From: Hysterangium stoloniferum
Lineage: Eukaryota; Basidiomycota; Agaricomycetes; Hysterangiales; Hysterangiaceae
DNA: 64,000 bases
NCBI GenBank assembly: GCA_015178975.1
Contig: WHVD01000017.1
Location: 496,001-560,000, forward strand
Reading direction: 5' to 3'
Below are positions 7,340-55,170 of this stretch, piece after piece; position 1 is the stretch's first letter; the number at the start of each line of letters is the position of its first letter. The translations under genes and the position numbers were made by a program. The notes below the pieces were generated by a model. The model saw only the letters and a list, made by a program, of their open reading frames with translations. It was not told the DNA's origin and made no database searches.

Positions 7340-9150
7340 ACAAAGGGAATAAAGAAACAAAGAAAAGTAAACGAGGTTATCCAGAGACTAGCACAGTGTA
7401 ATACGAACGGCTTTCAAAATATAACTGATCCCGGAGAACGAGTACTGTTGGAATGCGGTAAGAGTATGCCAAGTGAAAAAGGAGTTTGATATAATATGCA
7501 GCGGTTTTCAGCGAATTTCCCAACTGGTATTTGTGGTGCCATTCCCCACATTATTGCACTTTTGAAGGACTCTAACAACACTGTTCGATCAAACGGAGTA
7601 TCGGCCTTGGGGAAGCTTTCAGAACGAGGTGCGGTGTCTCATAATGGGATGGTGATCTTCCTGACAGTTGATCACAGCCGAATTTCGAGTTGCGATTTCG
7701 GGTGCCATTCCCGACATTGTTGCACTTTTGAAGGGCTCTGACAACTCCGTTCGTTCAAACGGAGTATCGATCCTGGCCAAGCTTTCAGACCATGGTTCAG
7801 TGCCTCATAATGGGGTGGGACCCCAGTTGACATTTGAACACAGCCGAATCCCGACCTGCCATTGCTGATGCCATTCCCGACATGGTTACACTTTTGAAGG
7901 AGTCTGACGACTCCACTCTTTCAAAGGGACTGTCGGCCCTGGAGAAACTTTCAGAGCAGGGTGCAGCGTCTCTCATAATGGGATGAAAGTCTTGCTGACA
8001 TTTGAGAACAGCTGAATTCCGGTCTGCCATTGCTGACGTCATTCCCAACATTGTCGCCTTTTGAAGGGAACCGTCGACTGGGTTCGTTTAAGCGGAGTAT
8101 GCGCTCTGCCAAAGCTTTCAAAGCAGGGTGCAGTTCCTCATAATGGGATGAGAATCTTGCTGACATTTGACCACAGCCGAATTCCGGTCTGCTATTGCTG
8201 ATTTCATTCCCGACATTGTTGCACTTATGAAGGATTCTGACTACTCCGTTCGTTTAAACGCAGTATAGACATTGACCAAGCTTTCAGAGCAGGGTGCAGT
8301 GCCTCATAATGGGATGAGAATCTTGCTGACATTTGATCACAGCCGAATTTCGACCTGCCATTGCTGTTGTCATTCTCGACATTGTTGCACTTTGAAGGAC
8401 CCTGGCTACTCCATTGGTTCCCACGTAGTGTCGGCCTTGGCGAAGCTTTCAGCCCGAAGTGCGGTGCCCCATAGTGAGATGGGAACCCAGCTGACATTTA
8501 ATCACAGCCGAAATTCGACCTGCAATTTTGGATGCCATACCCGACATTGTCATATTGTTGAAAGAGAATACATGTGACATTTGTCCCCAGCCAAATTTCG
8601 ACCTGCCATTGTGGATGCCATGCCTGACATTGACATTCTTTTGAAAGACTCACAGGAATCTGTTCGATTAAATGGTGTCTCATCACTGGCCAAGCTTTCG
8701 GAGCAGGGTGCGTTGCCTCATAATGGGATGAGAATTCAGCTGACATTTGTTGACAGCCGACTTTCGAGCTGCCATTTCGAGTGCGATTTCCGACATTGCT
8801 GAACGTTTGAAGAATTCTAGGTACTCTATTGGATCACGCGCGGCATGTACCATAGCGAAGCTTTCAGAGCAAGGTACAGCCCCACATAATGGGATGAGAA
8901 CCCAAGTGACATTTGACCAGTCGAAGTTCGGACTTCCCTTTTAACCACGGCCGGATTTCGAGCTGCCATTGTGGATGCCATTCCTGACATCGCTGCCCTG
9001 TTGCAATACGGGAGACAAATCCCCTGGATCAAATGGACTATCGGCCCTGGCCAAACTTTCAGAACAAGGTGTGGTGCGCCACAGTGATGGGAATCACGCT
9101 GACATTTCACCACAGCTACATTTCGAGCGGCCATTATCATGGGAGGGCAA
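7340..9150 (+). pseudogene. Truncated HEAT-repeat paralogue (about 10 repeats)
   Basis: This is a convergent relative of the minus-strand DUF6535-HEAT gene. The exon before the array (about 7366-7462, ...NEVIQRLAQCNTNG...) and the first HEAT exon (about 7514-7628, SANFPTGICGAIPHIIALLK) match those of the other gene. After that come about nine units of 165-168 bp: a ~117-nt exon (39 residues, core AIPDIVALLKxSDNSVRSNG) followed by a ~49-nt intron with GTGC donor, CTGAC branch and CACAG acceptor. No DUF6535 part is seen upstream and no 3' end after about 9150. Single-base losses (for example near 8053 and 8391) break the frame. It is most likely a dead, truncated duplicate. Confidence 0.75.
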
Positions 9151-14143: not shown

Positions 14144-17100
14144 CTACAATGTTGTCAATAGCCCGTGTCTATCCATTTCCAGTATCAAGGCCCGAATACA
14201 ATCAGAAGGAATATCACCCATGAAATGTATCATGAAGGACACAATATGAGCGACTTCAATAATGGTATGGCTTACAAAAGCTGGAAAAATTGGCATTCAT
14301 ACAACTAAAAGATGGAAGCACTCACCATCCTCCAAGAGAATTTCAATCAGCGTGCCACGGTGTAGGAGAGGTGGTTCGGGTAGATAGAATTGGCACAGTG
14401 CAATGAGGACGATCTGCAGCTTGAGGTTGGAAAAGTAGCCTGAAAGACGGTAATAAAAGGACTCAATGCTGGATACAATTAAAGCATACCATGTTTAGAA
14501 AAAGCTGCAAATAGTTTTACACCGGACAAAACAAATTCATCGTTCTTGGCAGAAACGAGGGATGCACAGTGATGTTCCAGGTTACAACGAGCAATTGAAT
14601 CACGAAAGCAATCTTTGAAAAACATAGCTAAGAAGAACCTGTTGATTTGCGGCTCAAGGAACGCACCGTGTGCTGCGAGCATGACGAGCAAGTCTACGAC
14701 ACGTGTTGCACTCAATGAGTGTATATCCTCCAAACGTTTCACAATACTAGGAATAGCCCGCACAATGGCAGATCTAATTTCAGCTATGGTCAAATGTCAG
14801 CTGGATTCCGATCCGATTATAAGGTACTGAACCATGGTCTGAAAGCTTCGCCAGGGCCGATGAAACACTTGGTTGAATATAGTACCAAGGGTCCTTCAGA
14901 AGTGCAACAATATCGGGGGTAGCATCCGACACAGCAGCTTGAAATTCGGCTGGGGACAATATCACTCGGAGTCCCATCCCATGATAATGCACCGCACCTT
15001 GCTCTGAAAGCTTGGCCAGGACCAATACTCCGTTTGATCGAACAACGACATCAGCGTTCTTCAAAAGTGCAACAATGTCGGGGATGGCGCTCAAAATGGC
15101 AGGCCGAAATTCGGCTGTGATCAAATGTCACTAGATTGCCATCCCATTATGAGGCACGGCACCTTGCTCGGAAAACTTGGCCAGGTCCAATGCTGCGCTT
15201 GAACGAACAAAGTTGTCAGTGTCCGTCAAAAGTGCAACAATATCAGGGATGGTAGTCGAAATGACAGGCCGAAATGCAACTGTGATCAAATGTCAGCTAG
15301 ATTACCCTCCCAATGTGAGGCACTCCACCTTGCTCTGAAAGCTTGGCCAGGACCGATGCTGCGTTTGATAGAGCGTGGGGGATAGAGTCCTTCAAAAGTG
15401 CAACAATTGCGGGAATGGCATCCAAAATGGCAGCTGGAAATTCAGCTGTAATAAATGTCAGCTGTGCTCTCATCCCGTTTTCGAGGCACCGCACCACATT
15501 CTGAAAGCTTGGCCAGTGCTGATCCAATATTTGATTGACCCCACAGGTCAGGGTCTCGCAAAAGTATGACAAGGTCGTGTATAGCATCCATAATGACAGA
15601 TCGAAATTCGGCTGGGGTCAGATGTCAGCTGGGTTCCATCCCATTCTGATAAACCACCTTGCTCTGAAAGCTTGTCCAGGGCCGATGCTGCGTTTGAACG
15701 AACAAAGACGTCAGTGTTATTCAAAAGTGCAACGATATCAGAAATAGCACACGACACGGCAGCTCGAAATTTGGCTAGGGTCAAATGTCAGTGGGATTCC
15801 CATCCCATTATGGTGCAACGCACATTGTTCTGAAAGCTTGGCCAGGGCCCATGCTGCGTCTGAACGAACAAAGTCGTCAGTGTCCTTCAAAAGTGCAACA
15901 ATGTCGGGAATGGCATTCGCAATAGCAGGCCGAAATTCGGCTGTGAGCAAATGTCAACGATGTTCCCATCCCATTATCAGGCACTTCACATTGTTCTGAA
16001 AGTTTTGCCACGGCCGAGACTGTATTTGATCGAGTAGATGGCCTAGAATCCTTCAAAAGTGCAGCAATGGCGGGAATGGCACCCAAAACGGCACCGCGAA
16101 ATTCGGCTGTGGTTAAATGTCAACTGGATTTGCAACCCGTTATGATGCACCGCACCTTGCTCTAAAAGTTTGCCTAGGGCTGATACTGCGTTGGATCCAA
16201 GGGAGAGGTAGGGGTCCTTCAAAAGTGCAACAATGTCGGGAACGGCCCCCGAAATGGCAGCTCGGAATTCGGCTGTGATCAATTGTCAACTGGATTTCCA
16301 TCCCATTGACAGACACCCCACCTTGTTCTGAAAGCTTGGCTAGGACCGATACTCCCCGGGACCGAACGGAGTCATCAGAGTCTTTCAAAAGTATGAAAAT
16401 GTTAGGAATGGCACCGGCAATGGCGGTGTGAAATTTGTCTGGAAACCCATCAATTATGGCAGTTTGCAAGACGTCGGCACACTTACCAAACACATGGAGA
16501 GTAATCACCGCCTGTCCGAGAGCCAATTTTCCTTCACGCACTCTGAGATTGAAGGTTGGTAAGGTGAGGCCAAAATTGTGAGCTTTCAAGTAGTTTGGAC
16601 ATTGGGAAATGAACAATATACGAAATAACATATGAGGGCTCTTCACGTACATGCCATCGTTATCTGTTGAAGGATTTTGATACCTTCATGACGCCAAATG
16701 CTGTGAGTACTCTGTAAGAGATCTATAGTCGACCAGACCCGGCTCGTCGCGAATTGAGAGATGTGGTGTGTGTCGGGCTTATTGACTAGATCGCTGTTAT
16801 ATGTAAGAGGACGGGGTAGGTCCGAAGGGGGGATAGTCAAGCTTCGGAGTGGAGTTGAAGGGGGATTGTGCGACGATGGCCGCATGTTGTCAGACAAACC
16901 TACAGCACCAAGTATGTGACCCCTGACAAGAGGAAGAAACTTCGCTATGGAGACTTGAGAAAAATGGTTCATGAAAAATTATTGGACCACCTTTCTCAGA
17001 AAACCTGGCCAGCAGAAATGCTGCGCTTCGGCGAACGGGGGCATAAGGGTACTTCAAAAGTGCAACAATGTCAGGAATGGCACGCTCCATAGCAACTTGA

Positions 17101-20100
17101 TATAGAGCTGTGTTCGGATTTCAGCTGCATTCACACCCCATTATTGAGGCACCGCACCTTCCTCTGAAAGCTTGGCCAGGACCGATACTGCGTTTGATCG
17201 AGCGTCGGGGAAAGAGCGCTTCAAAAGTGCAACAATTGCAGGAATGGCATCCAAAATGGCAGCTCGAAATTCGTCTGTGGTGAAATGTCAGCTAGAGTCT
17301 CATCCCACTGAGACGCATGCCACCTTGCTTTGAAAGCTTGACCAGGGCCGATACTCCATCTGACCCAGGGGTTTCGTCCCAGAATTGTAAAAGGGCAACG
17401 ATGTCAGGAATAGCATTCACAATGGCAACTCGAAATTCGGCCGTGGTTGAAAGGGCAGTCCGAAATTCGACTGTGGGCAAATGTCATGTGGATTCACATC
17501 ATTATGTGGGACCGTACATTGCTCTGAAAGCTTGGCCAAGGTCAATACTGCTTGTGATCGAACAGAGGACCCAGGGTCCTTAAAAAGTGCAGTAATGCCG
17601 GAAATCGTACTTGCAATGGCGGCTCGAAAGTCGGCTGTCAACAAATGTCAGCTGGGTTCTCATCCCAATACGAGGCACCGCGCCTTGTTCCGAAAGCTTG
17701 CCCAGTGCTGATACACCATTTGATCGAACAGTTTCGTGGGAGTCTTTCAAAAGCATGACAATGTCGGGCATGACATCCACAATGGCAGGTCGAAATTTGG
17801 CTGGGGTTAAATGTCAGCTGGGCTCCCATTTGATTATGAGGCACCGCACCCTGTTCCGAAAGGCTGGCCAGTGCTGATACACCATTTGATCGAACATATT
17901 CGTGGGAGTCCTTCAACAGTATGACGATGTCGGGGATGGCATCCACAACGGCAGGTCGAACTTCGGCTGGGGTCAAATGTCAGCTGGGTTCCGATTTTAT
18001 GAGGGGGCAACGCAACCTTGCTTTGAAAGCTTGGCCAGTGCTGGTACACTACTTGATCCAGCCCCGTTGTGAGTGTCCTTCAAAAGTGCAACAATGTTGG
18101 GCATGACATCAGCAATGGCAGGCCGGAATTCGGCTGTGGTCAAAGGTCAGCTGGGCTCCCATCCTATCACAAGCCACTGCACCCTGTTCTGAAAACTTGG
18201 CCAGGGCCGACATTCCGTTTGAAAGAACCCAGTTGTCAGTGTCCTTCAAAAGTGCAACAACGTTGGGAATGATATCAACAATGGCAGGCCGGAATTCGGC
18301 TGTAGTCAATTGTCAGCCTGGTTCCCATCCCATTATGAGGCACTGCACCCTGCTCTGAAAACTTGGCCAGGGTCGATACTGCAATTGAACGAACCGAGTC
18401 GTCCTTCAAAAGTGCAGCAATGTCAGGAATGGTACGCGAAATGGCAACTCGAAATTCGGCTGCGATTAAATGTCAGCTGGGTTCCCATCTCATTATGAGG
18501 CACCGCACCTTGTTCTGAAAGCTTCGCCAGGGCCGACACTCCGTCTGAACGAACCCAGCCGTGAGTGTCCTGCAAAAGTGCAACGATGTCGCCAATGGCA
18601 CCAGAAATCGCAGCTCGAAATTCGGCTGTGATCACATCTCAGCAAGATTACCATTTCATGAAGAGCCATCGAACCTCGTTCTGAAAGCTTCGCCAAGGCC
18701 GATACTCCGTTTGATCGAACGGTGTTGTCAGAGTCCTTCAAAAGTGCAATAATGTGGGGAATGGCCCCACAAATACCAGTTGGGAAATTCGCTGAAAACC
18801 GCTGCATATTATATCAAACTCCTTTTCCACTTCGCATACTCTTACCACATTTCACCAGTAATAGTTCTTCGGGATCAGTGCTATCTTCAGAGCCGTCCGT
18901 ACTACATTGTGCTAGTCTCTTTATCCACTCGTTCCCTTTTCCGGCCGTGCGAAAACGTTAGCTAAATGTATTTTCAATCGTGTAAGGAGGACAGTTCACC
19001 TGCTATAACACCCTTCCCTTTTAACATTCTCTGGCAATCCTCTGCTCATCAATTAGTGTCTTTCCTGTACCATGCCGACTGTCCTTACGAAGATGCCAAT
19101 ATGCCAATATTACCTCTTCGCAGCTTGCACGTAAGTCCTCCTTCTCTGACAATGCTCCGTCAATAGCAGCCATCATCAATGTCTGTCGCTCGTAAGGTGC
19201 TGCACCCAGCGTGATCAGAGTTTGGATGTCTGAGTATGTCGACACCCCTAGGTTACCCTCATCCATGTTTACCTTGATACCAATAAGTATCGCCAACCCC
19301 AATGTCCTCAGGGAAGGCTCTAAACTGTCCAACCGATGTAAGGGTTTTCCGACCTGTATCAGGGTTGTGAAGGGGGTAAGACACCCTTCGTCTTTCAGTT
19401 TGTCTGTTTGCGGCGACAGGAATCGGTACATTGCAAGGAGAGAAACTTCGGCAAGCTCTGCATCACGTACGGTGACGACGCCCGCAGTAATGTGAAAGCA
19501 ACTTTCAAATATTTTGCATACTTTCTCCGTTACCGCTCGTTGGCACAAAGCAATTCGCAACTGTTCACATGGTTTCGCACCTGCGACAGCCCTCAGTGCC
19601 TCCTGAACTGCCTCCTCCGACATAGATTTTTCAATCACCCATGCCAGGACATCAGCTTCAAGTTCTGCCCATTGAGGCTTGCGCTGAGCTTCGACCAAGA
19701 ACCGAGAGAGGCTTTCTAGCCATTCGGAAATTCTAAATGGATACGTCGATGTCGATGAAAAAGACCCAGAATCGTCTGTTCCGGACGTCCCATACTTTGC
19801 GCCTGTAGAGACGACCGGGAAAAAGCGCGACATTGTGGTCTGAAAAGGACAGGCGGGGGAAAACAAGGGACATAAGGTCCCGAGTAGATATAGCGCGATT
19901 CCAGATCCGGTCAAAAAAAGCAGAAGCACGCCTAAAGCTACGCTGCTATCCCAGGTGAATAAGACGAGACCTGCAGAAAAAAGAAAGAGAGCTAGTTGGA
20001 TCAAAAGCGGGATGCCAGTAACAACTGACTCGAGGCGCCACTGCTGCGCTCTCTTAACACGAAGGAGACGTTCACATGCATCACTTGAGCGACTTCCTGG

Positions 20101-20743
20101 CGATACAGGAATATACTTTGCCAGCCATTCCCTGGCAAGTACAGCACAAAGCGCACTGAAGAGGGTCAGACCGAGACTACCGAACCACAAATAGTTGACA
20201 ATAAGGGAAGATTTGGAGACTTTAACAGACGGAGAGGTAGTCGCAGCCAGCTGATTTTGGAGTGTTCAGGATTTCCTGAAGAGGATCTACCTGCAAATCC
20301 TTCCTACTGTCGATCAGGAAAGCGGTAAGAATTGCCCCAAACAAGCCTGCCTTAGAAACTATAAGTTGAATATCCCATAAAGAAAAATGAATTCAGTTTA
20401 CAAATATGAGAAGCTCGTCGATACCAACTTGCAATGAACTGGCAAGTTCTCTGTCTTCTTTTCCGGTTTCCTTTAGGTATAACGACCATATGGTTGAATC
20501 CGATTGAAAGTGCTTGGCATAGGGGTTGCCTTCCTCGCTATTTAGGCCATTACTACCACTGGATGTCGCATTGGTTGGGGTTGAGGGAACCGCGGTAGGC
20601 CACAGCGAAGGTTCACGATTGGTCGTTCCTGATACTTCCGTTTGCTTTCAGTTTAGAAACAGCGTAAAATCTGATTTAATACCTGCGGCAACCGGGATCT
20701 GTGATTCAGCGGAGCTACTGTCTCTTGCATACTGCGAAGACAT
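14144..20743 (-). CDS. DUF6535-HEAT repeat membrane protein (multi-exon)
   Basis: The start is the ATG at 20743-20741. Exons read as 20743-20683, 20634-20402, 20350-19089, 19041-19000 and 18935-18846, then HEAT exons from 18791, with a stop at 14146-14144. Introns begin GT, end AG and carry CTAAC/CTAAT-type branch points. The N-terminal ~500 residues match DUF6535: PYAKHFQSDSTIWSLYLKE, DELLIF-AGLFGAILTAFLID, YLWFGSLGLTLF, and three further hydrophobic helices, so a membrane anchor is likely. Then follow 11 HEAT exons, a ~130-residue linker (exons around 16.9-16.45 kb), 11 more HEAT exons and a C-terminal module ending MDRHGLLTTL. Each HEAT exon is 39 codons in phase 1. About 98 + 410 + 22x39 + linkers gives roughly 1,600 residues. 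A 40-nt stretch (20290-20251) is either a very short intron or a frameshift. The linker might instead start a second gene at 16885. HEAT proteins are usually scaffolds; no specific role is known. Confidence 0.75.
14794..16440 (-). repeat. HEAT exon array, second block (about 10-11 units)
   Basis: This has the same unit as the first block, with acceptor-side motifs near 16273, 16107, 15940, 15775, 15613, 15447, 15287, 15118 and 14950. It is preceded by a non-HEAT linker exon (REGKLALGQAVITLHVFGKC) spliced at a strong GTACGT donor (16648). Exons vary more than in the first block (for example LVILLRDPDLWGQSN), suggesting an older block or looser constraint. Confidence 0.7.
16890..18791 (-). repeat. 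HEAT exon array, first block (11 units of ~165 bp)
   Basis: Acceptor-proximal motifs (TCAAATGTCAGC and variants on the plus strand) recur near 18625, 18460, 18300, 18137, 17970, 17806, 17641, 17475, 17282 and 17100. Each unit is a 117-nt exon plus a ~49-nt intron. One unit (about 17440-17478) shows a small internal duplication of its exon start (AEFR...TALSTTAEFR). Frames stay open across the block, so the array appears to be kept by selection or is recent. Confidence 0.75.
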
Positions 20744-21375: not shown

Positions 21376-21486
21376 ATCCGTTAAATACGGTAAATATATT
21401 ACTTTGAAACTGAGGATACTTCATTATTACTGCTGTCTAAGGAAAGGGCCAGGGTGTAAGAATTACATAAGCAGGGTGAAAATATT

Positions 21487-21565
21487 GACCTGAGCTGGAT
21501 TTGAACCAGCGACCACTAAGTTTGGATTACATGTCTAGTGCTCTTAACCCCTGAGCAATCAGGCC
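21487..21565 (-). tRNA. tRNA-like sequence, isotype uncertain
   Basis: Read on the minus strand it starts GGCCTGATTGCTCAGGGG and ends GCTCAGGTC. A 7-bp acceptor stem forms (GGCCTGA with TCAGGTC). The D arm is GCTC...GAGC, and the T arm is GCTGG-TTCAAAT-CCAGC. A-box and B-box (GGTTCAAATCC) are good, and TTTT follows 10 nt downstream. The anticodon arm is poor: CTAGA/CTTAG pairs imperfectly around a 13-nt loop, which could contain a short intron or decay. GTA (Tyr) or CCA (Trp) could be read. It may be a tRNA gene, a pseudogene or a SINE head. Confidence 0.5.
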
Positions 21566-21984
21566 ATTAAGAGTAGTTCTATTAAGAACCAGTTACTACT
21601 GAGATGATTAATCATCAGTAAGATATTAATATATCCAGGTCAACCATTACTCATTCAACACAGGGTGGGTGGGTAAAAAATTAATTGTATAGATATGTAG
21701 AGAAAGGATCAGATGTCAGTGATGAGAAAACAGAAAGGATCATGGATTGACAGCAATGTCATGAGAAAACAAAGGCATGTGAGTCCTTCATACGCCCAGC
21801 TGGATGTTGAGTGCCAAACTACTCCCAGCATGCCAGGGATCGTGCGGCACTCAACACTATCCAGCATTGACTATTTTAGACTACACAGTGAAGAGCTGAG
21901 TGGTTGGGGAGAGGGAGGGTGTTAGCTCTCTGCGTGTGTGTGGGAAGACTCACCGCTCACCTGCAAAGGCCTGCCTACTACCGC

Positions 21985-24604: not shown

Positions 24605-25019
24605 TTCAGTGAAAACTATGGTTTTCTGCCTGAAAAAATCTTGAGCCAAGACAAAGTTTTTTTAATGTTTTGTCAAGGGGAAAACCATGAGGAAATTTAC
24701 AATTTAATTATACATAAAATCATTGAATAATTATATATTTCAACAAAATTTTCCTTGGTCACAAACACTATGGAAATTCAAAAAATCTGTTTATGAAACT
24801 ATGAAGAAATTGATGATTTTCCATGAGTTTCTTAGAGGTTTTTCAAGGTGAGAAACCCTGAACTGATGTTTTGCAATTCAGCAGGATTCGCAAATATTCA
24901 AAAGGATACAGTGCGATTCAGTGCGATTCACAAATATTTGAAAAGATACAGTGTGATTCATTACAATTGGCAAGTGTTTGGGAATATTCAATGTGATTTG
25001 CAAGTTTTCAGGAGGCTAG

Positions 25020-25360
25020 AGTGCGACTCTTTTAGATTTTTTGCAACTATTCTAGACTCTTTGTGATTGTTTGCAACTGTTTGGGACTCTTTTGGACTTT
25101 TTGCAACTCTTTTGGACTTTTTGCAACTCTTTTGGACTTTTTGCAACTCTTTTGGACTTTTTGCAACTCTTTTGGACTTTTTGCGATTCTTTTGGACTTT
25201 TTGTGACTCTTATAGACTCGTTACAACTGTTATAGACTCTTTGCAACTGTTATAGACTCTTTGTGACTCATGTAGACTCTTTGCGACTTTTTGTGACTCA
25301 TTTAGATTCTTTGCGACTCTTTTAGACTCTTTGCGACTTTTTTAGACTCTTTGGGACTTA
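25020..25360 (+). repeat. 20-bp minisatellite in left arm
   Basis: Units of the form TTTTGGACTTTTTGCAACTC and TTTTAGACTCTTTGCGACTC repeat for about 340 bp. Variable sites are mainly the CG dinucleotide (GCGACT, GTGACT, GCAACT) and GGAC/AGAC. The mirrored copy is at about 36290-36630. Confidence 0.85.
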
Positions 25361-25639
25361 CTCTTTGTGACTCTTTGAAAAGTTGCAAAGTCGCACAAAG
25401 TCGCACAAAGTCACAAAGTGTCGCACAAAGTCGCAAAGTATCGCAAAAAGTCGTGTTGCAAAAAGTCGCAAAAGTGTCACAAATCATAGCACAGTGTCTT
25501 CACACAATAATAATCTATGTAAAAAGCCTCCAAAATTTCTATTATCCTCTTTTCTCTATGACCACAAACAATGATACACTATACACACAGCACATGGACA
25601 AAGGGAGGAAAAAAATGCATCACTATCAATTATATAGAT

Positions 25640-26560
25640 AATGTATGTTAAGAAGAAGCCACAGCAAACCTGATATACAGTAGGAGGTACACATCACATG
25701 TGAATTTGAAGCTGGGGGATGATGGCATGGAACAAGAAAATGGGGCTTGGGGCAGGCAGTATCCAAGATGGCGGCAGTGGCAGGGGGCAGGCTGGGGTGA
25801 TGGTGGGTAGGTACAGGTAGTTGAGTATCGATACCAGTATCATCAGGCGCAGGATATAAATGAGCCGCCGCACCACTCGAGCTGGTCGTGGTGGTGCTCG
25901 GCGAGCCCCCAGGGCCCTGCGGGAAAAACGGCACCGTCAGTGTCCCAAGCCCAGGCGGGAAGCCCCCAAAATCCGCCCTCGAGCTGGTCTTGTCGGACCA
26001 GTTCTGCGCGTGGTACGGGGATGCGCGCCGCCGTGCGCGATCGGGTGCAGCGGCGCGGGGTGCAGCGTGTCGTAGGGCCCGTTCCCGTGTCCGTGTCCAT
26101 CGCCGCCGCTGTACGGCCCGTGCCCGTGCCCATGTCCCTGTCCATGGTCGTGCGGCCCATACCCATGCCCTTGCGGCCCGTGGGGCCGGTGGCCGCCGTG
26201 CGTGTGCCCCAGCTTGGGGAAGGCGGGGTGCCATGTCGCGGCAGGGGGGAAGTGGTCGTCGGGGTCCACGTGGACGGCGGGTCCATTCAGCGCGGGCACG
26301 GCATCGGCGTAGTGGCTGCTGCTGGAGTAGTAGGCCGTGGCGAGCCCGTAGGGGAGGCGGTAGGGTGCGCCGTCGACGGGGGAGATGCTGCTGTACTCAT
26401 CGGCGGGGAAGTCGTGCGGTGAGATGGAGGTGTCGTAGGGCGAGGCATCGGTGCGGCGCTTCTTGCAGCTGTTGTTGGGGCGGGGGCGGTAGATGCGGTA
26501 GTGCTCTGCGTGAGGTTTCCGATGGGCGGGTGGGATATGTGGGATATGTGGGATAACAAT
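25640..26560 (-). pseudogene. GC-rich host-gene fragment captured in left arm
   Basis: GC and CpG content jump sharply here. On the minus strand, downstream of an intron-like stretch ending CACGCAG, a frame reads EHYRIYRPRPNNSCKKRRTD, then DEYSSISPVDGAPYRLPYG, a His/Gly-rich run, and, after a one-base shift near the GGCGGCGCGC tract, SPYHAQNWSDKTSSRADFGG. Composition and third-position GC fit a real gene fragment. Opposite-strand frames of up to 222 codons are shadows. The basic cluster suggests a nuclear or DNA-binding protein, but no domain is complete and I name none. An identical copy with the same shift is in the right arm. Confidence 0.5.
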
Positions 26561-26689
26561 GGGGGGGCGGACTACCAGGTTGGGTTTGAGCCAAGGGAGA
26601 GAGGGCGGGGGACCTGCGGCTGGGGCTGGAGAAAGCGAGTGTCACGGTCACCGTTGTGGATGACAGGTGACATAAACTCCCCCCGCGGA

Positions 26690-26935
26690 GGCTGAGGATT
26701 CTCCCCCACACGCTCCGTGACTCTGACTCGGATGCCGACTTTGACAACGATTCGTTAACGGGCAAGGACAAGGACAAGTTGTCCCCGGCGGAACCGGAAC
26801 CCACGCTCGCCTCGCCTCTCGCTGCACGGTATGATTTCCACGCTAGCTTGAAGGGAAAGACAACATGGACACCCTTGAGCCCAAGTTTGGGACCTGCCAC
26901 TGCACCCGCCCCCGCACCCACAAAGTCGCAAAGAG
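26690..26935 (+). pseudogene. Second captured coding fragment, acidic then Pro/Ala-rich
   Basis: The plus strand reads LPHTLRDSDSDADFDND, then KDKLSPAEPEPTLASPLAAR and YDFHASLKGKTTW, and ends APAPAPTK, where it runs into the minisatellite. It is GC-rich with normal CpG. It may belong to a different gene from the minus-strand fragment beside it. The mirrored copy is at 34740-34980. Function is unknown. Confidence 0.4.
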
Positions 26936-27171
26936 TCTACATGAGTCACAAAGAGTCTATAACAGTTTTAATGAGTCTATAAGAGTCGCAAAAAGTCCAA
27001 AAGAGTCGCAAAAAGTCCAAAAGAGTCACAAACAGTCCAAAAGAGTCACAAACAGTCTATCAGAGTCGCAAACAGTCACAAACAATCACAAAGAGTCTAG
27101 AATAGTTGCAAAAAGTCTAAATCGGGAGGATTGAGTGCAATTCCCAAATATTCGAGAGGCTACAGTGGGAT

Positions 27172-27800
27172 TCATTGTGACTCTTTTAGACTTTTTGTGA
27201 CTCTTTTAGACTTTTTGTGACTCTTTTAGACTTTTTGTGACTCTTTTAGACTTTTTGTGACTCTTTTAGACTTTTTGTGACTCTTTTAGACTTTTTGGGA
27301 CTCTTTTAGACTCTTTTAGATTGTTTGTGGCTCTTTTAGACTCTTTTAGATTGTTTGTGGCTCTTTTAGACTCTTTTATATTGTTTGTGGCTCTTTTAGA
27401 CTCTTTTAGATTGTTTGTGGCTCTTTTAGACTCTTTTAGATTGTTTGTGGCTCTTTTAGACTCTTTTAGATTGTTTGTGGCTCTTTTAGACTCTTTTAGA
27501 TTGTTTGTGACTCTTTTAGATTGTTTGTGACTCTTTTAGATTGTTTGTGACTCTTTTAGATTGTTTGTGACTCTTTTAGATTGTTTGTGACTCTTTTAGA
27601 TTGTTTGTGACTCTTTTAGATTGTTTGTGACTCTTTTAGATTGTTTGTGACTCTTTTAGATTGTTTGTGACTCTTTTAGATTGTTTGTGACTCTTTTAGA
27701 TTGTTTGTGACTCTTTTAGATTGTTTGTGACTCTTTTAGATTGTTTGTGACTCTTTTAGATTGTTTGTGACTCTTTTAGATTGTTTGTGACTCTTTTAGA
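27172..27800 (+). repeat. 20-bp and 30-bp minisatellites, left arm
   Basis: The order is about 6 units of CTCTTTTAGACTTTTTGTGA, about 6-7 units of a 30-bp higher-order form ending TTGTTTGTGG, then about 15 units of CTCTTTTAGATTGTTTGTGA. Units are nearly identical, so local amplification is recent compared with unit origin. The right arm has the same series at 33851-34480. Confidence 0.9.
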
Positions 27801-28910
27801 TTGCTCTTTGTGACTCTTTGCTCTTTGCGACTCTTTGCCCTTTGCGACTCTTTGCTCTTTGCGACTCTTTGCTCTTTGCGACTCTTTGCTCTTTGCGACT
27901 CTTTGCCCTTTGTGACTCTTTGCCCTTTGCGACTCTTTGCTCTTTGCGACTCTTTGCCCTTTGCGACTCTTTGCTCTTTGCGACTCTTTGCTCTTTGCGA
28001 CTCTTTGCTCTTTGCGACTCTTTGCTCTTTGCGACTCTTTGCTCTTTGCGACTCTTTGCTCTTTGCGACTCTTTGCTCTTTGCGACTCTTTGCTCTTTGC
28101 GACTCTTTGCTCTTTGCGACTCTTTGCTCTTTGCGACTCTTTGCTCTTTGCGACTCTTTGCTCTTTGCGACTCTTTGCTCTTTGCGACTCTTTGCTCTTT
28201 GCGACTCTTTGCTCTTTGCGACTCTTTGCTCTTTGCGACTCTTTGCTCTTTGCGACTCTTTGCTCTTTGCGACTCTTTGCCCTTTGCGACTCTTTGCTCT
28301 TTGCGACTCTTTGCTCTTTGCGACTCTTTGCTCTTTGCGACTCTTTGCTCTTTGCGACTCTTTGCTCTTTGCGACTCTTTGCTCTTTGCGACTCTTTGCT
28401 CTTTGCGACTCTTTGCTCTTTGCGACTCTTTGCTCTTTGCGACTCTTTGCTCTTTGCGACTCTTTGCTCTTTGCGACTCTTTGCTCTTTGCGACTCTTTG
28501 CTCTTTGCGACTCTTTGCTCTTTGCGACTCTTTGCTCTTTGCGACTCTTTGCTCTTTGCGACTCTTTGCTCTTTGCGACTCTTTGCTCTTTGCGACTCTT
28601 TGCTCTTTGCGACTCTTTGCTCTTTGCGACTCTTTGCTCTTTGCGACTCTTTGCTCTTTGCGACTCTTTGCTCTTTGCGACTCTTTGCTCTTTGCGACTC
28701 TTTGCTCTTTGCTCTTTGCGACTCTTTGCTCTTTGCGACTCTTTGCTCTTTGCGACTCTTTGCTCTTTGCGACTCTTTGCTCTTTGCGACTCTTTGCTCT
28801 TTGCGACTCTTTGCTCTTTGCTACTCTTTGTGACTCTTTTAGACTCTTTGCTCTTTGCGACTCTTTGCTCTTTGCGACTCTTTGCTACTCTTTGTGACTC
28901 TTTGTGACTC
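27801..28910 (+). repeat. 17-bp minisatellite, ~64 units, left arm
   Basis: The unit GCGACTCTTTGCTCTTT repeats with almost no variation (occasional CCC for CTC, GTG for GCG). Every unit keeps its CpG, unlike surrounding DNA. Because 17 is not a multiple of 3 and the unit lacks stops, all three plus frames stay open for 300-370 codons (LFATLCSLRLFALCDSL periodic), which is an artefact. The right arm holds only about 11 units. Confidence 0.95.
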
Positions 28911-33441: not shown

Positions 33442-36400
33442 ATAATGGTCTTCTGTTTTGAAATGTAGAAAGACATAAAAATGATACATGGGTAAGATAA
33501 ATTGGAGTCGTTTCGAGAATGAATTTGAATTTCTACATGGGGAGGATCGGTGATACTGTGCAAAGGGTCGCAAAGAGTCTAAAAGAGTTGCAAAGAATCT
33601 AAAAGAGTCACAAAGAGTCTAAAAGAGTCCCAAAGAGTCTAAAAGAGTCACAAAGAGTAGCAAAGAGTCGCAAAGAGCAAAGAGTCGCAAAGAGCAAAGA
33701 GTCGCAAAGAGCAAAGAGTCGCAAAGAGCAAAGAGTCGCAAAGAGCAAAGAGTCGCAAAGAGCAAAGAGTCGCAAAGAGCAAAGAGTCGCAAAGAGCAAA
33801 GAGTCGCAAAGGGCAAAGAGTCGCAAAGAGCAAAGAGTCACAAAGAGCAATCTAAAAGAGTCACAAACAATCTAAAAGAGTCACAAACAATCTAAAAGAG
33901 TCACAAACAATCTAAAAGAGTCACAAACAATCTAAAAGAGTCACAAACAATCTAAAAGAGTCACAAACAATCTAAAAGAGTCACAAACAATCTAAAAGAG
34001 TCACAAACAATCTAAAAGAGTCACAAACAATCTAAAAGAGTCACAAACAATCTAAAAGAGTCACAAACAATCTAAAAGAGTCACAAACAATCTAAAAGAG
34101 TCACAAACAATCTAAAAGAGTCACAAACAATCTAAAAGAGTCACAAACAATCTAAAAGAGTCTAAAAGAGCCACAAACAATCTAAAAGAGTCTAAAAGAG
34201 CCACAAACAATCTAAAAGAGTCTAAAAGAGCCACAAACAATCTAAAAGAGTCTAAAAGAGCCACAAACAATATAAAAGAGTCTAAAAGAGCCACAAACAA
34301 TCTAAAAGAGTCTAAAAGAGCCACAAACAATCTAAAAGAGTCTAAAAGAGTCCCAAAAAGTCTAAAAGAGTCACAAAAAGTCTAAAAGAGTCACAAAAAG
34401 TCTAAAAGAGTCACAAAAAGTCTAAAAGAGTCACAAAAAGTCTAAAAGAGTCACAAAAAGTCTAAAAGAGTCACAATGAATCCCACTGTAGCCTCTCGAA
34501 TATTTGGGAATTGCACTCAATCCTCCCGATTTAGACTTTTTGCAACTATTCTAGACTCTTTGTGATTGTTTGTGACTGTTTGCGACTCTGATAGACTGTT
34601 TGTGACTCTTTTGGACTGTTTGTGACTCTTTTGGACTTTTTGCGACTCTTTTGGACTTTTTGCGACTCTTATAGACTCATTAAAACTGTTATAGACTCTT
34701 TGTGACTCATGTAGACTCTTTGCGACTTTGTGGGTGCGGGGGCGGGTGCAGTGGCAGGTCCCAAACTTGGGCTCAAGGGTGTCCATGTTGTCTTTCCCTT
34801 CAAGCTAGCGTGGAAATCATACCGTGCAGCGAGAGGCGAGGCGAGCGTGGGTTCCGGTTCCGCCGGGGACAACTTGTCCTTGTCCTTGCCCGTTAACGAA
34901 TCGTTGTCAAAGTCGGCATCCGAGTCAGAGTCACGGAGCGTGTGGGGGAGAATCCTCAGCCTCCGCGGGGGGAGTTTATGTCACCTGTCATCCACAACGG
35001 TGACCGTGACACTCGCTTTCTCCAGCCCCAGCCGCAGGTCCCCCGCCCTCTCTCCCTTGGCTCAAACCCAACCTGGTAGTCCGCCCCCCCATTGTTATCC
35101 CACATATCCCACATATCCCACCCGCCCATCGGAAACCTCACGCAGAGCACTACCGCATCTACCGCCCCCGCCCCAACAACAGCTGCAAGAAGCGCCGCAC
35201 CGATGCCTCGCCCTACGACACCTCCATCTCACCGCACGACTTCCCCGCCGATGAGTACAGCAGCATCTCCCCCGTCGACGGCGCACCCTACCGCCTCCCC
35301 TACGGGCTCGCCACGGCCTACTACTCCAGCAGCAGCCACTACGCCGATGCCGTGCCCGCGCTGAATGGACCCGCCGTCCACGTGGACCCCGACGACCACT
35401 TCCCCCCTGCCGCGACATGGCACCCCGCCTTCCCCAAGCTGGGGCACACGCACGGCGGCCACCGGCCCCACGGGCCGCAAGGGCATGGGTATGGGCCGCA
35501 CGACCATGGACAGGGACATGGGCACGGGCACGGGCCGTACAGCGGCGGCGATGGACACGGACACGGGAACGGGCCCTACGACACGCTGCACCCCGCGCCG
35601 CTGCACCCGATCGCGCACGGCGGCGCGCATCCCCGTACCACGCGCAGAACTGGTCCGACAAGACCAGCTCGAGGGCGGATTTTGGGGGCTTCCCGCCTGG
35701 GCTTGGGACACTGACGGTGCCGTTTTTCCCGCAGGGCCCTGGGGGCTCGCCGAGCACCACCACGACCAGCTCGAGTGGTGCGGCGGCTCATTTATATCCT
35801 GCGCCTGATGATACTGGTATCGATACTCAACTACCTGTACCTACCCACCATCACCCCAGCCTGCCCCCTGCCACTGCCGCCATCTTGGATACTGCCTGCC
35901 CCAAGCCCCATTTTCTTGTTCCATGCCATCATCCCCCAGCTTCAAATTCACATGTGATGTGTACCTCCTACTGTATATCAGGTTTGCTGTGGCTTCTTCT
36001 TAACATACATTATCTATATAATTGATAGTGATGCATTTTTTTCCTCCCTTTGTCCATGTGCTGTGTGTATAGTGTATCATTGTTTGTGGTCATAGAGAAA
36101 AGAGGATAATAGAAATTTTGGAGGCTTTTTACATAGATTATTATTGTGTGAAGACACTGTGCTATGATTTGTGACACTTTTGCGACTTTTTGCAACACGA
36201 CTTTTTGCGATACTTTGCGACTTTGTGCGACACTTTGTGACTTTGTGCGACTTTGTGCGACTTTGCAACTTTTCAAAGAGTCACAAAGAGTAAGTCCCAA
36301 AGAGTCTAAAAAAGTCGCAAAGAGTCTAAAAGAGTCGCAAAGAATCTAAATGAGTCACAAAAAGTCGCAAAGAGTCTACATGAGTCACAAAGAGTCTATA

Positions 36401-37045
36401 ACAGTTGCAAAGAGTCTATAACAGTTGTAACGAGTCTATAAGAGTCACAAAAAGTCCAAAAGAATCGCAAAAAGTCCAAAAGAGTTGCAAAAAGTCCAAA
36501 AGAGTTGCAAAAAGTCCAAAAGAGTTGCAAAAAGTCTAAAAGAGTTGCAAAAAGTCCAAAAGAGTCCCAAACAGTTGCAAACAATCACAAAGAGTCTAGA
36601 ATAGTTGCAAAAAATCTAAAAGAGTCGCACTCTAGCCTCCTGAAAACTTGCAAATCACATTGAATATTCCCAAACACTTGCCAATTGTAATGAATCACAC
36701 TGTATCTTTTCAAATATTTGTGAATCGCACTGAATCGCACTGTATCCTTTTGAATATTTGCGAATCCTGCTGAATTGCAAAACATCAGTTCAGGGTTTCT
36801 CACCTTGAAAAACCTCTAAGAAACTCATGGAAAATCATCAATTCTTCATGGTTTCATAAACAGATTTTTTGAATTTCCATAGTGTTTGTGACCAAGGAAA
36901 ATTTTGTTGAAATATATAATTATTCAATGATTTTATGTATAATTAAATTGTAAATTTCCTCATGGTTTTCCCCTTGACAAAACATTAAAAAAACTTTGTC
37001 TTGGCTCAAGATTTTTTCAGGCAGAAAACCATAGTTTTCACTGAA
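33442..37045. repeat. Right arm of giant inverted repeat (3.60 kb)
   Basis: This is the mirror of 24605-29073. In order it holds a short 17-bp array (about 33640-33850, ~11 units), 20/30-bp arrays (33851-34480), another 20-bp stretch (about 34530-34730), a GC-rich block (34740-36010), a 20-bp array (36290-36630) and an AT-rich outer zone. Differences from the left arm are few single bases plus the 17-bp array length. The AT-rich zone continues past 37045 in similar style, so the true repeat unit may extend further on this side. Confidence 0.9.
34740..36010 (+). pseudogene. GC-rich captured gene fragments, right-arm copy
   Basis: This is the mirror image of 25640-26935 and carries the same reading frames, the same intron-like boundary near 35145 (CACGCAG) and the same one-base shift. 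The lesion is therefore older than the arm duplication, or the arms exchange sequence. CpG is high although the flanking arrays and outer zone are CpG-poor. Confidence 0.5.
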
Positions 37046-49878: not shown

Positions 49879-51212
49879 TGAAGGCTCTTACATACTCCTC
49901 CTCAGCTTAGCCATATTCTCACTTTTCTCAATAAAGGCAAGTCTGCTCCTCAGATCTCTGAAATCACTGGCCAGGATCTGTCCACTATATCCAGAATTCA
50001 TTCTACCCATTGCTCATCACTTGCCAACTCATCTGGTGGCTGTTTATGCAAGCTTTCCTCCTCAGATATTCATTATTCTATTCAGCAAATCACTTCTCAA
50101 AAGGCTGAAAATGCCACTGAGGTCACCAAACCATTCAAGACATGACTGGAGAGTCTATTTCAGTTAGAACTGTTCATAGGGCATTCAAGAAGGCTGAAAT
50201 GAGGGCTATGGTGAAGAGAAAAAAGCCTTTACTCAATAAGAGGTATAGGAAGGCAAGGGTGGACTTTACTCTGGCACACAAGGACTGGACTGTGGATGAT
50301 TGGAAGAGGGTTGTTTGGTCAGATGAGACAAAAATCAATTGTTTGGGGTCATATGGGAGGAATTATATGTGGAAAAGGGCAGGAGAGGGGCTCAGTGGTA
50401 GGCTGGTCAAGGGCACAGTCAGGTTTGGGGGAGGAAATCTGATGTTGTGGAGCTGTATGTTGTGGGAAGGCCCAGGATATTCCACCAAGATTAATGGGAG
50501 AATGAATGCTGACCTTGTTGAAATCTGCAAGCCTGGTGAATCACAGTACGAGGACTCTCAACTGTTGGAGCGTAGCTACTTAGAGTGGAGCGGTGAAGAA
50601 CTAAACCGGTGATATAACTAGGCTTCCAGATGAGGTTCTACTCTCATCTGGAACGAACTATATACTAGAATACATGGTCTGTGCACTGGTCTGTGCACTA
50701 TGGCGTGCTACGGATCTAGTGAACCTAAACTATATATACTATCACATGATATGAACCGGTCCGAAATATGCAATCACAAGACGAGTTATGATATCATACT
50801 TATGGTATGTTATCATAACCTAATAGACCTTTATGGTAGCATTTTGGAAGATGAACTTCAAGCAACTGTGGAGTATTTTAACAAGAACACAGAAGATGTT
50901 GTCTTTCAGCAGGACAATGATACCAAACACAAGAGCACAAAGGCCATTAATTGGTTCAAAGACAATGGATTTATGGTCATGGTATGGCCACCTCAGTCTG
51001 CTGACCTTAATCCAATTGAACACCTCTGGTATTACCTCAAAAGGAGGTTGGGAGAGTATGAAGTGGCACCCAAGAGTATTCATGAGTTGTGGGAGAGGGT
51101 TCAGACAGAGTGGGAGAATATCCCTGCCTCTACTTGTCAGAACTTGATAGAGAGTATTCCTAGAAGGGTTGAGGCTGTTTTGAAGGCCAAGAGAGGCTAT
51201 ACCAAGTACTAG
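49879..51212 (+). pseudogene. Tc1-A transposase, interrupted
   Basis: The N-terminal helix-turn-helix part reads LSHILTFLNKGKSAPQISEI after an early frame shift following the ATG at 49879. From 50142 the frame is good: MVKRKKPLLNKRYRKARVDF, VVWSDETKI (first catalytic Asp), GGGNLMLWSCM. After the 310-bp solo LTR it continues GSILEDELQATVEYFNKN, FQQDNDTKHKST (second Asp) and NPIEHLWYYLKRR (Glu, 34 residues after the second Asp), ending RGYTKY. About 350 codons is normal for Tc1. The reading frames on either side of the LTR are compatible once the 5-bp duplication is counted. Confidence 0.85.
50516..50825. mobile_element. Solo LTR, 310 bp, inside Tc1-A transposase
   Basis: It starts TGTTGAAAT and ends AACCTAATA, flanked by GACCT on both sides (50511-50515 and 50826-50830). 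It shares ACCGGTGATATAACTAGG-like and ACATGGTCTGTGCAC sequence with the solo LTR at 13034-13333. It retains many CpG sites while the surrounding Tc1 has few, so it inserted late. Confidence 0.85.
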
Positions 51213-53639: not shown

Positions 53640-54507
53640 TTGCAAGGCAAAGGTCGAATTAGTCAAACTGTCGGCGAGAATGGTTGTTGGTCTTCCAGGA
53701 CCAGAAAAGTCACAGCGTCATTTAGATTCAAAAACCTTCATCACCGTGTGTATTGCTGCGGGGGGAAAGCCCGGCGCCCCCACCACGTACTAGAATTGGG
53801 CCTACCACACGCACGCGCAAGTATGTATGAAAGGCTACAGCTATTTTTTAACCCTCCAAGGAGCCATTTCCTCCTATTAAAGCACTATTCCAGTCTTAAA
53901 ACTTGGATATTAATAGGTAAACCTTTCCTTCCAATACAAAGCGGATCATCCTTCAATGGTAGAAATTAGTATATAGTTGGGATGTCCCAGAGTACAATGG
54001 CTTGCAAATCATAGGTCAGCTTACAGTCGACGTCATTGAAGATTTATACATAAATCTTGTGGAGGTAGTAAGGACAGGAATGTTGGTGTGTCAAATCGCG
54101 TTTGTTCGTTGTGAGGTAGGACAGGTTTAATCATGTAGTCCATGTCCTACTCGATCCCGGCCATTCAAAGTTTTACCCCGATCCAATTATCTCAACTGGT
54201 AAAGATATTGCCTACCTTTGACTAGGCTTTAACAGGGACCTCATTGCTGCCACAAATGGACATCAAAAAGAGCTCCCTCACCTCGATATGAACGGACTTA
54301 GCGCTATATAGCTTGCAGCAATCAACTGTTTAATAAATCAAGCTGAGCTAATAATATTGAATGGGGTGTACAATCTAGTGAAAGGGATGTGGGGTAGACA
54401 CGAATGGCACAAGGTACCGAGTGCATAAGGATTTCGCGCGAGCCACGTATAAATGTGAGCGGAATTTTCGCCGTGCAACAACTCTTAGTTCATAGTAGTG
54501 TGCGAGG
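53640..54507. repeat. Copy of the HEAT-gene 3' flank
   Basis: This aligns with 12935-14143 without the 300-bp LTR (the empty site is near 53762-53776). Identity is roughly 85% by eye. Confidence 0.8.
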
Positions 54508-55170
54508 CTATAATGTTGTCAATAGTCCGTGTCTATCCATTTCCAGTATCAAGGCCCGAATACAATCAGAAGGAATATCACCCATAAAATGTATCATGAA
54601 GGACAAAATATCAGCAACTTCAAGAATGGTATGGCTTACAAAAGCCGGAAAAATTGGCATTCATACAACTAGAAGATGGAAGCACTCACTATCCTCCAAG
54701 AGGATTTGAAGCAGCGTGCCACGATGTAGGAGAGGTGGTTCAGGTACATAGAAGCGGCACAGTGCAATGAGGACGATCTGCAGCTTGAGGTCGGAAAAGT
54801 AGCCTGAAAGAGGGTAAAAAGAATCAACGCTAGAAACAGTTAAGGCATACCATATTTAGAAAAAGCTGCAAACAATTTTACACCGGATAAAACAAATGCA
54901 TCTTCTTGGGCAGCAACGAGAGATGCACAGTGATGTTCTAAGTTACAACGAGCAATTGGATCACGAAAGCAGTCTTTGAAAACATTGTTGAGAAGCAACT
55001 GTTGATTCGCATGTCAAGCCACGCGCCGTGTGCCGATAACTTGATGAGCAAGTCGACAACATAATCTGGATTGGATGGGTGTCTATTTTGTAAAAGTTTA
55101 ACAATACTAGGAATAGCACGTGCTATGGCAGATCTAAATTCCGCTATGGTCAAGTGTCTAAACTGCATTA
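54508..55170 (-). pseudogene. 3'-end fragment of a DUF6535-HEAT gene
   Basis: The reading runs from about 55157 (AEFRSAIARAIPSIVKLLQN, last HEAT exon) through an exon with DPIARCNLEHHCASLV, a YFSDLKLQIVLIALC exon and a final exon, to a stop at 54510-54508 matching MDRHGLLTTL. Exon-intron layout equals the gene at 14144-14794. One donor is GC instead of GT. Similarity ends near 55157-55170, where AT-rich sequence starts, so upstream exons are absent. It is a truncated duplicate, probably not functional. Confidence 0.8.

Follow-up and report, generated by a model that had tools for sequence, protein, structure and literature searches.

In fungal NLRs of Podospora (the HNWD WD-repeat family and proteins with TPR or ANK repeats), positive selection is reported at exposed repeat positions, and the WD, TPR and ANK repeats of fungal NLRs vary in number and evolve in concert, according to the passages of Dyrka et al. 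(2014; PMC4986451) drawn on here. A truffle NACHT-ANK family (Iotti et al., 2012) is described, in passages of PMC4986451 and PMC9815663, as having exons of about 3 bp that are alternatively spliced. The alphaReps are artificial HEAT-like binders randomised at repeat positions 18, 19, 22, 23, 26 and 30; in their complexes, the part of PMC3754942 used here counts 19/19 (A3), 11/22 (bA3-2) and 13/17 (bNCS-16) interface residues as coming from randomised positions. We analysed a stretch of 64,000 nucleotides from the basidiomycete Hysterangium stoloniferum (contig WHVD01000017.1, positions 496,001 to 560,000; C79:496001-560000 in our numbering), which we call the window. It contains a gene that joins a DUF6535 membrane domain to 22 HEAT repeats, with one exon per repeat. 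We give slightly better than even chances to the reading that this gene and its paralogs form a membrane-tethered, non-NLR recognition family, which would diversify by exchange of exon units and by selection on a binding face.

As far as the cited passages describe the repeats of fungal NLRs, the family shares with them length variation, internal homogenisation, an apparent excess of replacements at a few positions and membership of a large paralogous family. It differs in its DUF6535 membrane head, in its HEAT repeats, in the use of one exon per repeat and in that no NACHT or NB-ARC match was found in the window gene. With the truffle NACHT-ANK genes, on the partial accounts cited, it has in common an exon structure serving diversification of a repeat recognition domain; unlike the truffle mini-exons, an exon here is a whole HEAT repeat. 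The likeness to alphaRep is that positions 22, 23 and 27, where entropy peaks in the natural repeats, are among the equivalents of the randomised ones, whereas alphaRep is artificial, has shorter repeats and carries no membrane head. Among the titles and abstracts listed by searches of the open literature, which lacks most subscription papers, for HEAT repeats together with basidiomycetes, allorecognition, exon-per-repeat structure or hypervariability, none described such a family.

A membrane-domain gene with one exon per HEAT repeat

The gene lies on the minus strand, from an ATG at 20743 to a TAG at 14144, and was modelled with 32 exons:

20683..20743, minus strand: exon e1, start codon and short N-terminal exon (gene model; GT donor at the equal place in aligned paralogs)
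20402..20634, minus strand: exon e2, start of DUF6535 (Pfam PF20153 positions 1-41, 1.3e-9, together with the start of e3)
19089..20350, minus strand: exon e3, DUF6535 membrane domain and soluble tail, with a frame break near 20265 (Pfam 7e-25 on 19089-20265; paralog alignment)
19000..19041, minus strand: exon e4, short phase-1 linker exon (gene model)
18846..18935, minus strand: exon e5, linker exon leading into the array (gene model)
16991..18791, minus strand: HEAT block 1, repeats r1-r11, one exon per repeat (exon scan with splice sites)
18791-18675, 18625-18509, 18459-18349, 18299-18183, 18133-18017, 17966-17850, minus strand: block 1 exons r1-r6 (exon scan)
17800-17684, 17634-17518, 17470-17324, 17274-17158, 17107-16991, minus strand: block 1 exons r7-r11 (exon scan)
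16651..16944, minus strand: hinge exon A, 294 nt, non-repeat linker (open frame in the window copy)
16487..16582, minus strand: hinge exon B, 96 nt (open frame)
14667..16438, minus strand: HEAT block 2, repeats r12-r22, a 117-nt exon each (exon scan)
16438-16322, 16272-16156, 16106-15990, 15940-15824, 15774-15658, 15611-15495, minus strand: block 2 exons r12-r17 (exon scan)
15445-15329, 15279-15163, 15114-14998, 14949-14833, 14783-14667, minus strand: block 2 exons r18-r22 (exon scan)
14490..14612, minus strand: C-terminal exon c1, phase 1 (alignment of 17 loci including the window)
14326..14439, minus strand: C-terminal exon c2, phase 1 (same alignment)
14144..14280, minus strand: C-terminal exon c3 and stop codon, phase 1 (same alignment)

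A preliminary description, made from the letters of the window, had placed a DUF6535 membrane domain and about 22 HEAT repeats at 14144..20743, each repeat a 117-nt phase-1 exon with an intron of about 49 nt. The start and stop codons, the 22 repeat exons and the Pfam matches bear this out, and the profile search it called for returned both DUF6535 and HEAT for the window gene. None of the repeat exons contains a stop; 20 of them are 117 nt long, one is 111 and one 147. The introns inside both blocks measure 46-50 nt and are GT-AG, with a GC donor at r7 as the single exception, and all introns downstream of the head exon are in phase 1. The repeat consensus is about EFRxAIxxAIPDIVALLKDSDxxVRSxAVSALAKLSEQ plus a split codon, approximately 39 residues, and Tandem Repeats Finder recovers a 166-bp unit. 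Spliced from e4 to the stop, as we infer from the splice signals and frames, the model reads 1163 amino acids with its sole stop at the end. The earlier account had overlooked the 552-nt stretch with two hinge exons that divides the array into 11 + 11, the three further non-repeat C-terminal exons, and the frameshift in the head of the window copy. Two separate genes divided at the 552-nt middle were considered and rejected: both hinge exons are phase 1, and the window reads through them to one stop.

The repeats match Pfam HEAT_2 (1.4e-45) and HEAT (6.2e-39). Their relatives in the PDB include PP2A subunit A, radial-spoke proteins, designed Armadillo proteins and the artificial alphaRep binders. 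Since no match to NACHT or NB-ARC, the defining domain of fungal NLRs, was found in the three window pieces searched with Pfam (e1 to the stop, minus a short stretch at the frame break), the protein is not an NLR; by analogy, it may work like one. The best PDB relatives, PP2A subunit A among them, have scaffold functions. This fits a different, somewhat unlikely explanation, in which the protein would be a structural or trafficking scaffold for ordinary partners, its length and surface drifting because exact length is of little importance, and unit turnover would be a by-product of repetitive DNA.

DUF6535 (PF20153) was detected at 88.4 and 38.7 bits against a gathering threshold of 23.9, in two head pieces that lie in different frames; the frame break was left unrepaired and the pieces were searched separately. 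The head probably has four membrane helices with both protein ends in the cytosol. Three of the helices were called by hydropathy; the first, at the e2/e3 junction, and the charge argument were judged by eye. Hydropathy also marks a weaker segment beyond the called helices. A single-sequence structure model of the head (mean pLDDT, the predicted local confidence score, 45.5) was unusable, a PDB profile search with 17 head sequences returned no matches up to E 1, and NCBIfam gave no match. No head relatives were confirmed in viral_contigs, the one collection searched for the head. In the portions of the open literature retrieved for DUF6535, IPR045338 or PF20153, the domain is named only in a table of down-regulated Flammulina transcripts.

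The gene is one of many. In the genome (111 Mb, 554 contigs) a head query gave 99 matches, 49 of them, including the window, at E<=1e-56. Forty-two of these 49 have an open frame of at least 400 amino acids, one with a stop inside the aligned stretch. The PF20153 profile matched 75 times (several matches being pieces of one gene) and in none of 14 control genomes (0/14). A repeat query gave at least 278 matches; the genome-wide repeat numbers are lower bounds because 150 of 1699 candidates were scored. Contigs C79, C545, C2 and C212 are shared by several members. Forty-nine strong head matches argue against the scaffold explanation, as such a number would be many for a housekeeping scaffold.

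Our sample comprises 24 loci including the window: the 20 closest relatives and three near-duplicate stretches. The architecture that recurs is head, block 1, hinge, block 2 and C-terminal exons. For six arrays (L033, L034, L035, L001, L003 and L007), the open frames upstream, over roughly 0.3 to 4 kb per locus, were listed by script and judged by eye, with no family search; L033 stops at a contig end. These loci may carry another head. A distant DUF6535 gene, L032 (C441:1293600-1298599), has a 769-amino-acid open frame from a GTG and is perhaps close to the ancestral form. That its tail is merely weakly ARM-like, in the same genome, is a further point for the scaffold explanation.

Gain, loss and homogenisation of repeat units

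Every repeat exon is in phase 1 and its intron is mostly 49 nt long, so that units are exchangeable without loss of frame; unequal crossing-over or gene conversion could add, remove or swap them. Frame-neutral gain and loss by unequal crossing-over had been proposed in the preliminary description. The products of exchange are seen in the paralogs, as whole-unit insertions and deletions, variable repeat number and arrays with no hinge or two hinges; the process itself we infer. Of the 24 loci, 17 have a single hinge and keep both ends of the array within the stretch analysed; these hold 11 to 16 repeats in block 2 and 21 to 32 recognised repeats overall. Block 1 ranges from 10 to 26 repeats in the sample minus L012, where block 2 was not found, the hingeless L028 and the truncated L031. 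L016 has at least 26 repeats in block 2, its array running to the edge of the stretch. Unit-by-unit alignment places whole-unit differences between L027 and L030 (22 and 23 units) and between the window and L010 (22 and 23). The idea that L031 is an allele with fewer repeats was dismissed, since it duplicates L010 at 98% and is truncated on its 5' side.

Two loci about 80 kb apart on contig C212 depart from the common architecture. L028 (C212:747488-757487) has an intact head exon and a C-terminus matching at 95%, with no hinge found by blastn. Compared with four relatives, its units 1-11 best match block 1 in 10-11/11 cases and its units 12-22 best match block 2 in 7-11/11. In L024 (C212:666777-676776), also with an intact head exon, block 1, hinge and block 2 are fused to a second block 1, hinge and block 2; one unit-sized gap suggests a repeat missed by the scan. 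The two loci look like the deletion and the duplication product of unequal crossing-over between block 1 and block 2, which is not to claim that a single event made both.

The nearest relative of a repeat lies within its own array in 186/579 cases (22 loci, L012 and L031 left out). This share differs widely between loci: 28/32 in L019, 31/42 in L018, 23/29 in L021 and 1/22 in the window. Some L021 units are 100% identical, 45 nt of intron included. High internal identity with concerted evolution, as in NLR-type repeats, is thus found in L019, L021 and L018 and weakly in the window. The description of the gene as rapidly reshuffled suits its sister genes better than the window copy, since the latter has a frameshift in its head and one of the least homogeneous arrays.

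The same exon symmetry could act within an individual. If symmetric phase 1-1 exons were skipped, one gene would give many in-frame forms, and any of the 22 repeat exons of the window could be skipped with the frame kept. Alternative splicing of very small exons is a reported source of diversity in truffle NACHT-ANK genes, according to passages of PMC4986451 and PMC9815663. Introns as uniform as these may, however, splice constitutively, and we regard a splicing-based repertoire, which would add to the recognition reading, as quite unlikely.

Divergence of individual repeat positions

We surveyed residues in the 544 repeats of 117 nt (L031 and other lengths left out). The core residues L16, L17, I10, I13 and L32 are nearly fixed. 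In contrast, 20 different residues occur at position 22 and 19 at position 23, and 19 and 18 are listed for positions 21 and 27. Aromatics make up 24% of residues at position 22 and 28% at position 23.

Divergence between arrays was measured on the 359 units followed by a 49-nt intron, with functional intron sites masked. Introns (0.236) and fourfold sites (0.254) diverge about equally and serve as a neutral yardstick. At codon positions 1+2, the hypervariable (HV) codons 21, 22, 23 and 27 reach 0.525, as against 0.199 for all other codons. The HV mean exceeds intron divergence in 22/22 arrays, by a ratio of 1.35-5.91, whereas the other codons exceed introns in 11/22 (L012 and L031 left out; 12/22 window repeats qualify). 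Positions 22 and 23 have the highest mean ratio and lie above introns in 22/22 arrays. The neutral drift that the scaffold explanation assumes would not put HV codons above introns in every array. In codons with one change, compared over 191 pairs, the HV sites have 179 replacement and 28 silent changes, giving a ratio of replacement to silent rates (omega) of 1.69 (p=0.003), compared with 0.38 for the core. This excess supports selection at the HV sites and speaks against the scaffold explanation, with the reservation that the split-sample result is borderline. A mutational hotspot at the HV codons was considered and rejected: their single-change silent rate is near that elsewhere, omega being 1.69 with the local and 1.77 with the global silent rate.

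The variable positions coincide in part with the binding surface of a designed protein. Placed by eye on the sequence match, alphaRep positions 18, 19, 22, 23, 26 and 30 correspond to family positions 22, 23, 26, 27, 30 and 34; the PDB match used for the numbering is a synthetic fusion, whose repeats we take to be of the alphaRep type. These six positions are more variable by entropy than random sets of six (permutation p=0.0025). Residues 22, 23 and 27 align to the alphaRep binding face; together with residue 21 they would form a long variable surface, which may bind variable partners.

Two adjacent hypervariable residues per repeat might instead contact successive parts of an extended ligand, be it a peptide, a glycan or nucleic acid, with each repeat reading one part in the manner of TALE or PPR proteins on nucleic acid. 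The neighbouring positions 22 and 23, top in mean divergence ratio, and the regular 39-residue spacing would suit such a modular code. We consider it very unlikely: the residues at 21/22/23/27 occur in 322 different combinations among the 544 repeats, far more than a small code would use, and a nucleic acid ligand is disfavoured because the commonest residues at 22 and 23 are Ser, Asp and aromatics, not basic ones.

Integrity of the family and a proposed role

Several observations weigh against a recognition family under such selection. Only the closest relatives were sampled, and for L034 and L035 no head was seen in the upstream stretch examined. The alphaRep equivalents 26 and 30 are fairly conserved, and positions 8, 21 and 4, outside the equivalent set, are variable too. 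The four HV positions were chosen on the very data used to test them. In split samples, the top three positions give omega 1.65 (p=0.034) and 1.79 (p=0.08), which is borderline, and the top five give 0.97 and 1.40, no significant excess. In a pathway count, the HV codons have about twice the overall silent change (0.27 vs 0.13), in our opinion from multiple hits. Over the repeats as a whole, the ratio of replacement to silent differences (pN/pS) is about 0.9 (0.92 and 0.87, the former biased by the choice of pairs by exon similarity; later estimates used other pair choices). Relaxed constraint therefore contributes to the divergence, and the value also favours the scaffold explanation.

Damage to individual copies belongs on the same side. 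The window head exon is 2 nt shorter than in 12/12 aligned paralogs, directly after the first membrane helix. Because its head is frameshifted where those of the 12 are not, the window copy is probably a family member that was damaged recently; it has either recently lost function or carries an assembly error at the break, with intact copies elsewhere. Of the 23 head exons, six did not score as intact: those of the window, L011 (among the 12 paralogs, with its own stop nearby), and L020, L029 and L030 (shortened) are broken or shortened, and the start of L015 was unmatched by the pattern. Hinge B is open in 17/23 family rows. Hinge A is open over at least 86 amino acids in 11/23 rows and not in 12/23, with a frame change in L017, L022 and L023 and a common in-frame stop in six loci (seven rows) of one subclade: L020, L024, L025, L027, L029 and L030. 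Beside this shared stop lies GTGAGT, by eye a possible splice donor in some of the six. The block 2 repeats past the stop remain open. In these members, either extra splicing removes the stop, or the protein ends after block 1, or the gene has decayed. Since the hinge is not open in all, separate transcripts for the two blocks are possible in some relatives.

These hinge stops and frameshifts, together with the head frameshift of the window, the head stop of L011 and the shortened heads of L020, L029 and L030, would be expected of a mostly decaying family, whose arrays, that of the window copy included, would be relics on which constraint has been relaxed. Truncated copies point the same way: L031 and two fragments in the window, at 7.5-8.9 kb and at 55 kb:

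7512..8873, plus strand: second family fragment, headless, with five recognisable repeats (exon scan, blastn; no head match nearby)
54231..55158 (approximate), minus strand: third fragment, last repeat and C-terminal exons only (r22-like exon 55143-55027; blastn 87% to L014, 83% to L010)

We nevertheless consider general decay unlikely. Head exons are intact in 17/23 loci, and in these the median ratio of nonsynonymous to synonymous divergence (dN/dS) is 0.25 for the membrane part and 0.47 for the soluble tail; the low omega of the repeat core argues likewise. In 23 loci, a scan with no condition on splice sites or reading frame picked out 588 units, 567 with AG, 562 with GT, 11 with GC and 552 with both acceptor and donor; only 4/588 contain a stop. 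Had the consensus exon evolved at random as far as the divergence observed, 54% of exons would be stop-free; the observed array pattern is thus not due to chance. An earlier count of 531 introns (525 GT, 6 GC, 531 AG) was partly fixed by a scan that required AG and GT/GC.

The surroundings of the gene include a tRNA-Thr (TGT) at 21485-21566 on the minus strand, about 0.7 kb from the gene on its 5' side. A perfect 3185-nt inverted repeat has arms at 24808-27992 and 33659-36843, 5.7 kb apart; it is a very recent inverted duplication, a mobile element or an assembly effect. The minisatellite at 27801-28907 is open in all three plus-strand frames, giving peptides of the CDSLLFATLCSLRLFAL type, and is a source of spurious open reading frames. 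Pieces of a Tc1/mariner-type transposase (HTH_Tnp_Tc3_2) lie at 50142-50609 on the plus strand and 61465-61944 on the minus strand.

The recognition role raised in the preliminary description gains indirect support from the replacement excess at few repeat positions with core and head conserved, an excess that is borderline in the split-sample tests. Based on these comparisons, we suggest that the DUF6535 head would anchor the protein, with the two HEAT blocks and the hinge joining them forming a long cytosolic solenoid. Selection would keep the fold and the head and favour change at four residues per repeat (21-23 and 27). The likeliest function, by analogy, would be intracellular recognition of variable partners, whether self/non-self, parasites or symbionts, much as the repeat domains of fungal NLRs do, but without the NLR motor domain. 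More tentatively, and with somewhat less than even confidence, these genes may represent a class of recognition receptor independent of NLRs and not described in the literature searched, combining a four-helix head with a natural alphaRep-like HEAT arm built of frame-neutral exon cassettes, varied by unequal crossing-over in the germ line and possibly by exon skipping within an individual.

If this is true, the still unnamed domain DUF6535 would gain a testable role, and in the arrays, with their defined exon units and named residues, the engineered alphaRep binders would have a counterpart in nature. In the parts of the literature consulted, self/non-self and parasite sensing in fungi are discussed mainly through NLR-type proteins; a large membrane family outside the NLRs, with repeat dynamics like theirs, would widen that picture.

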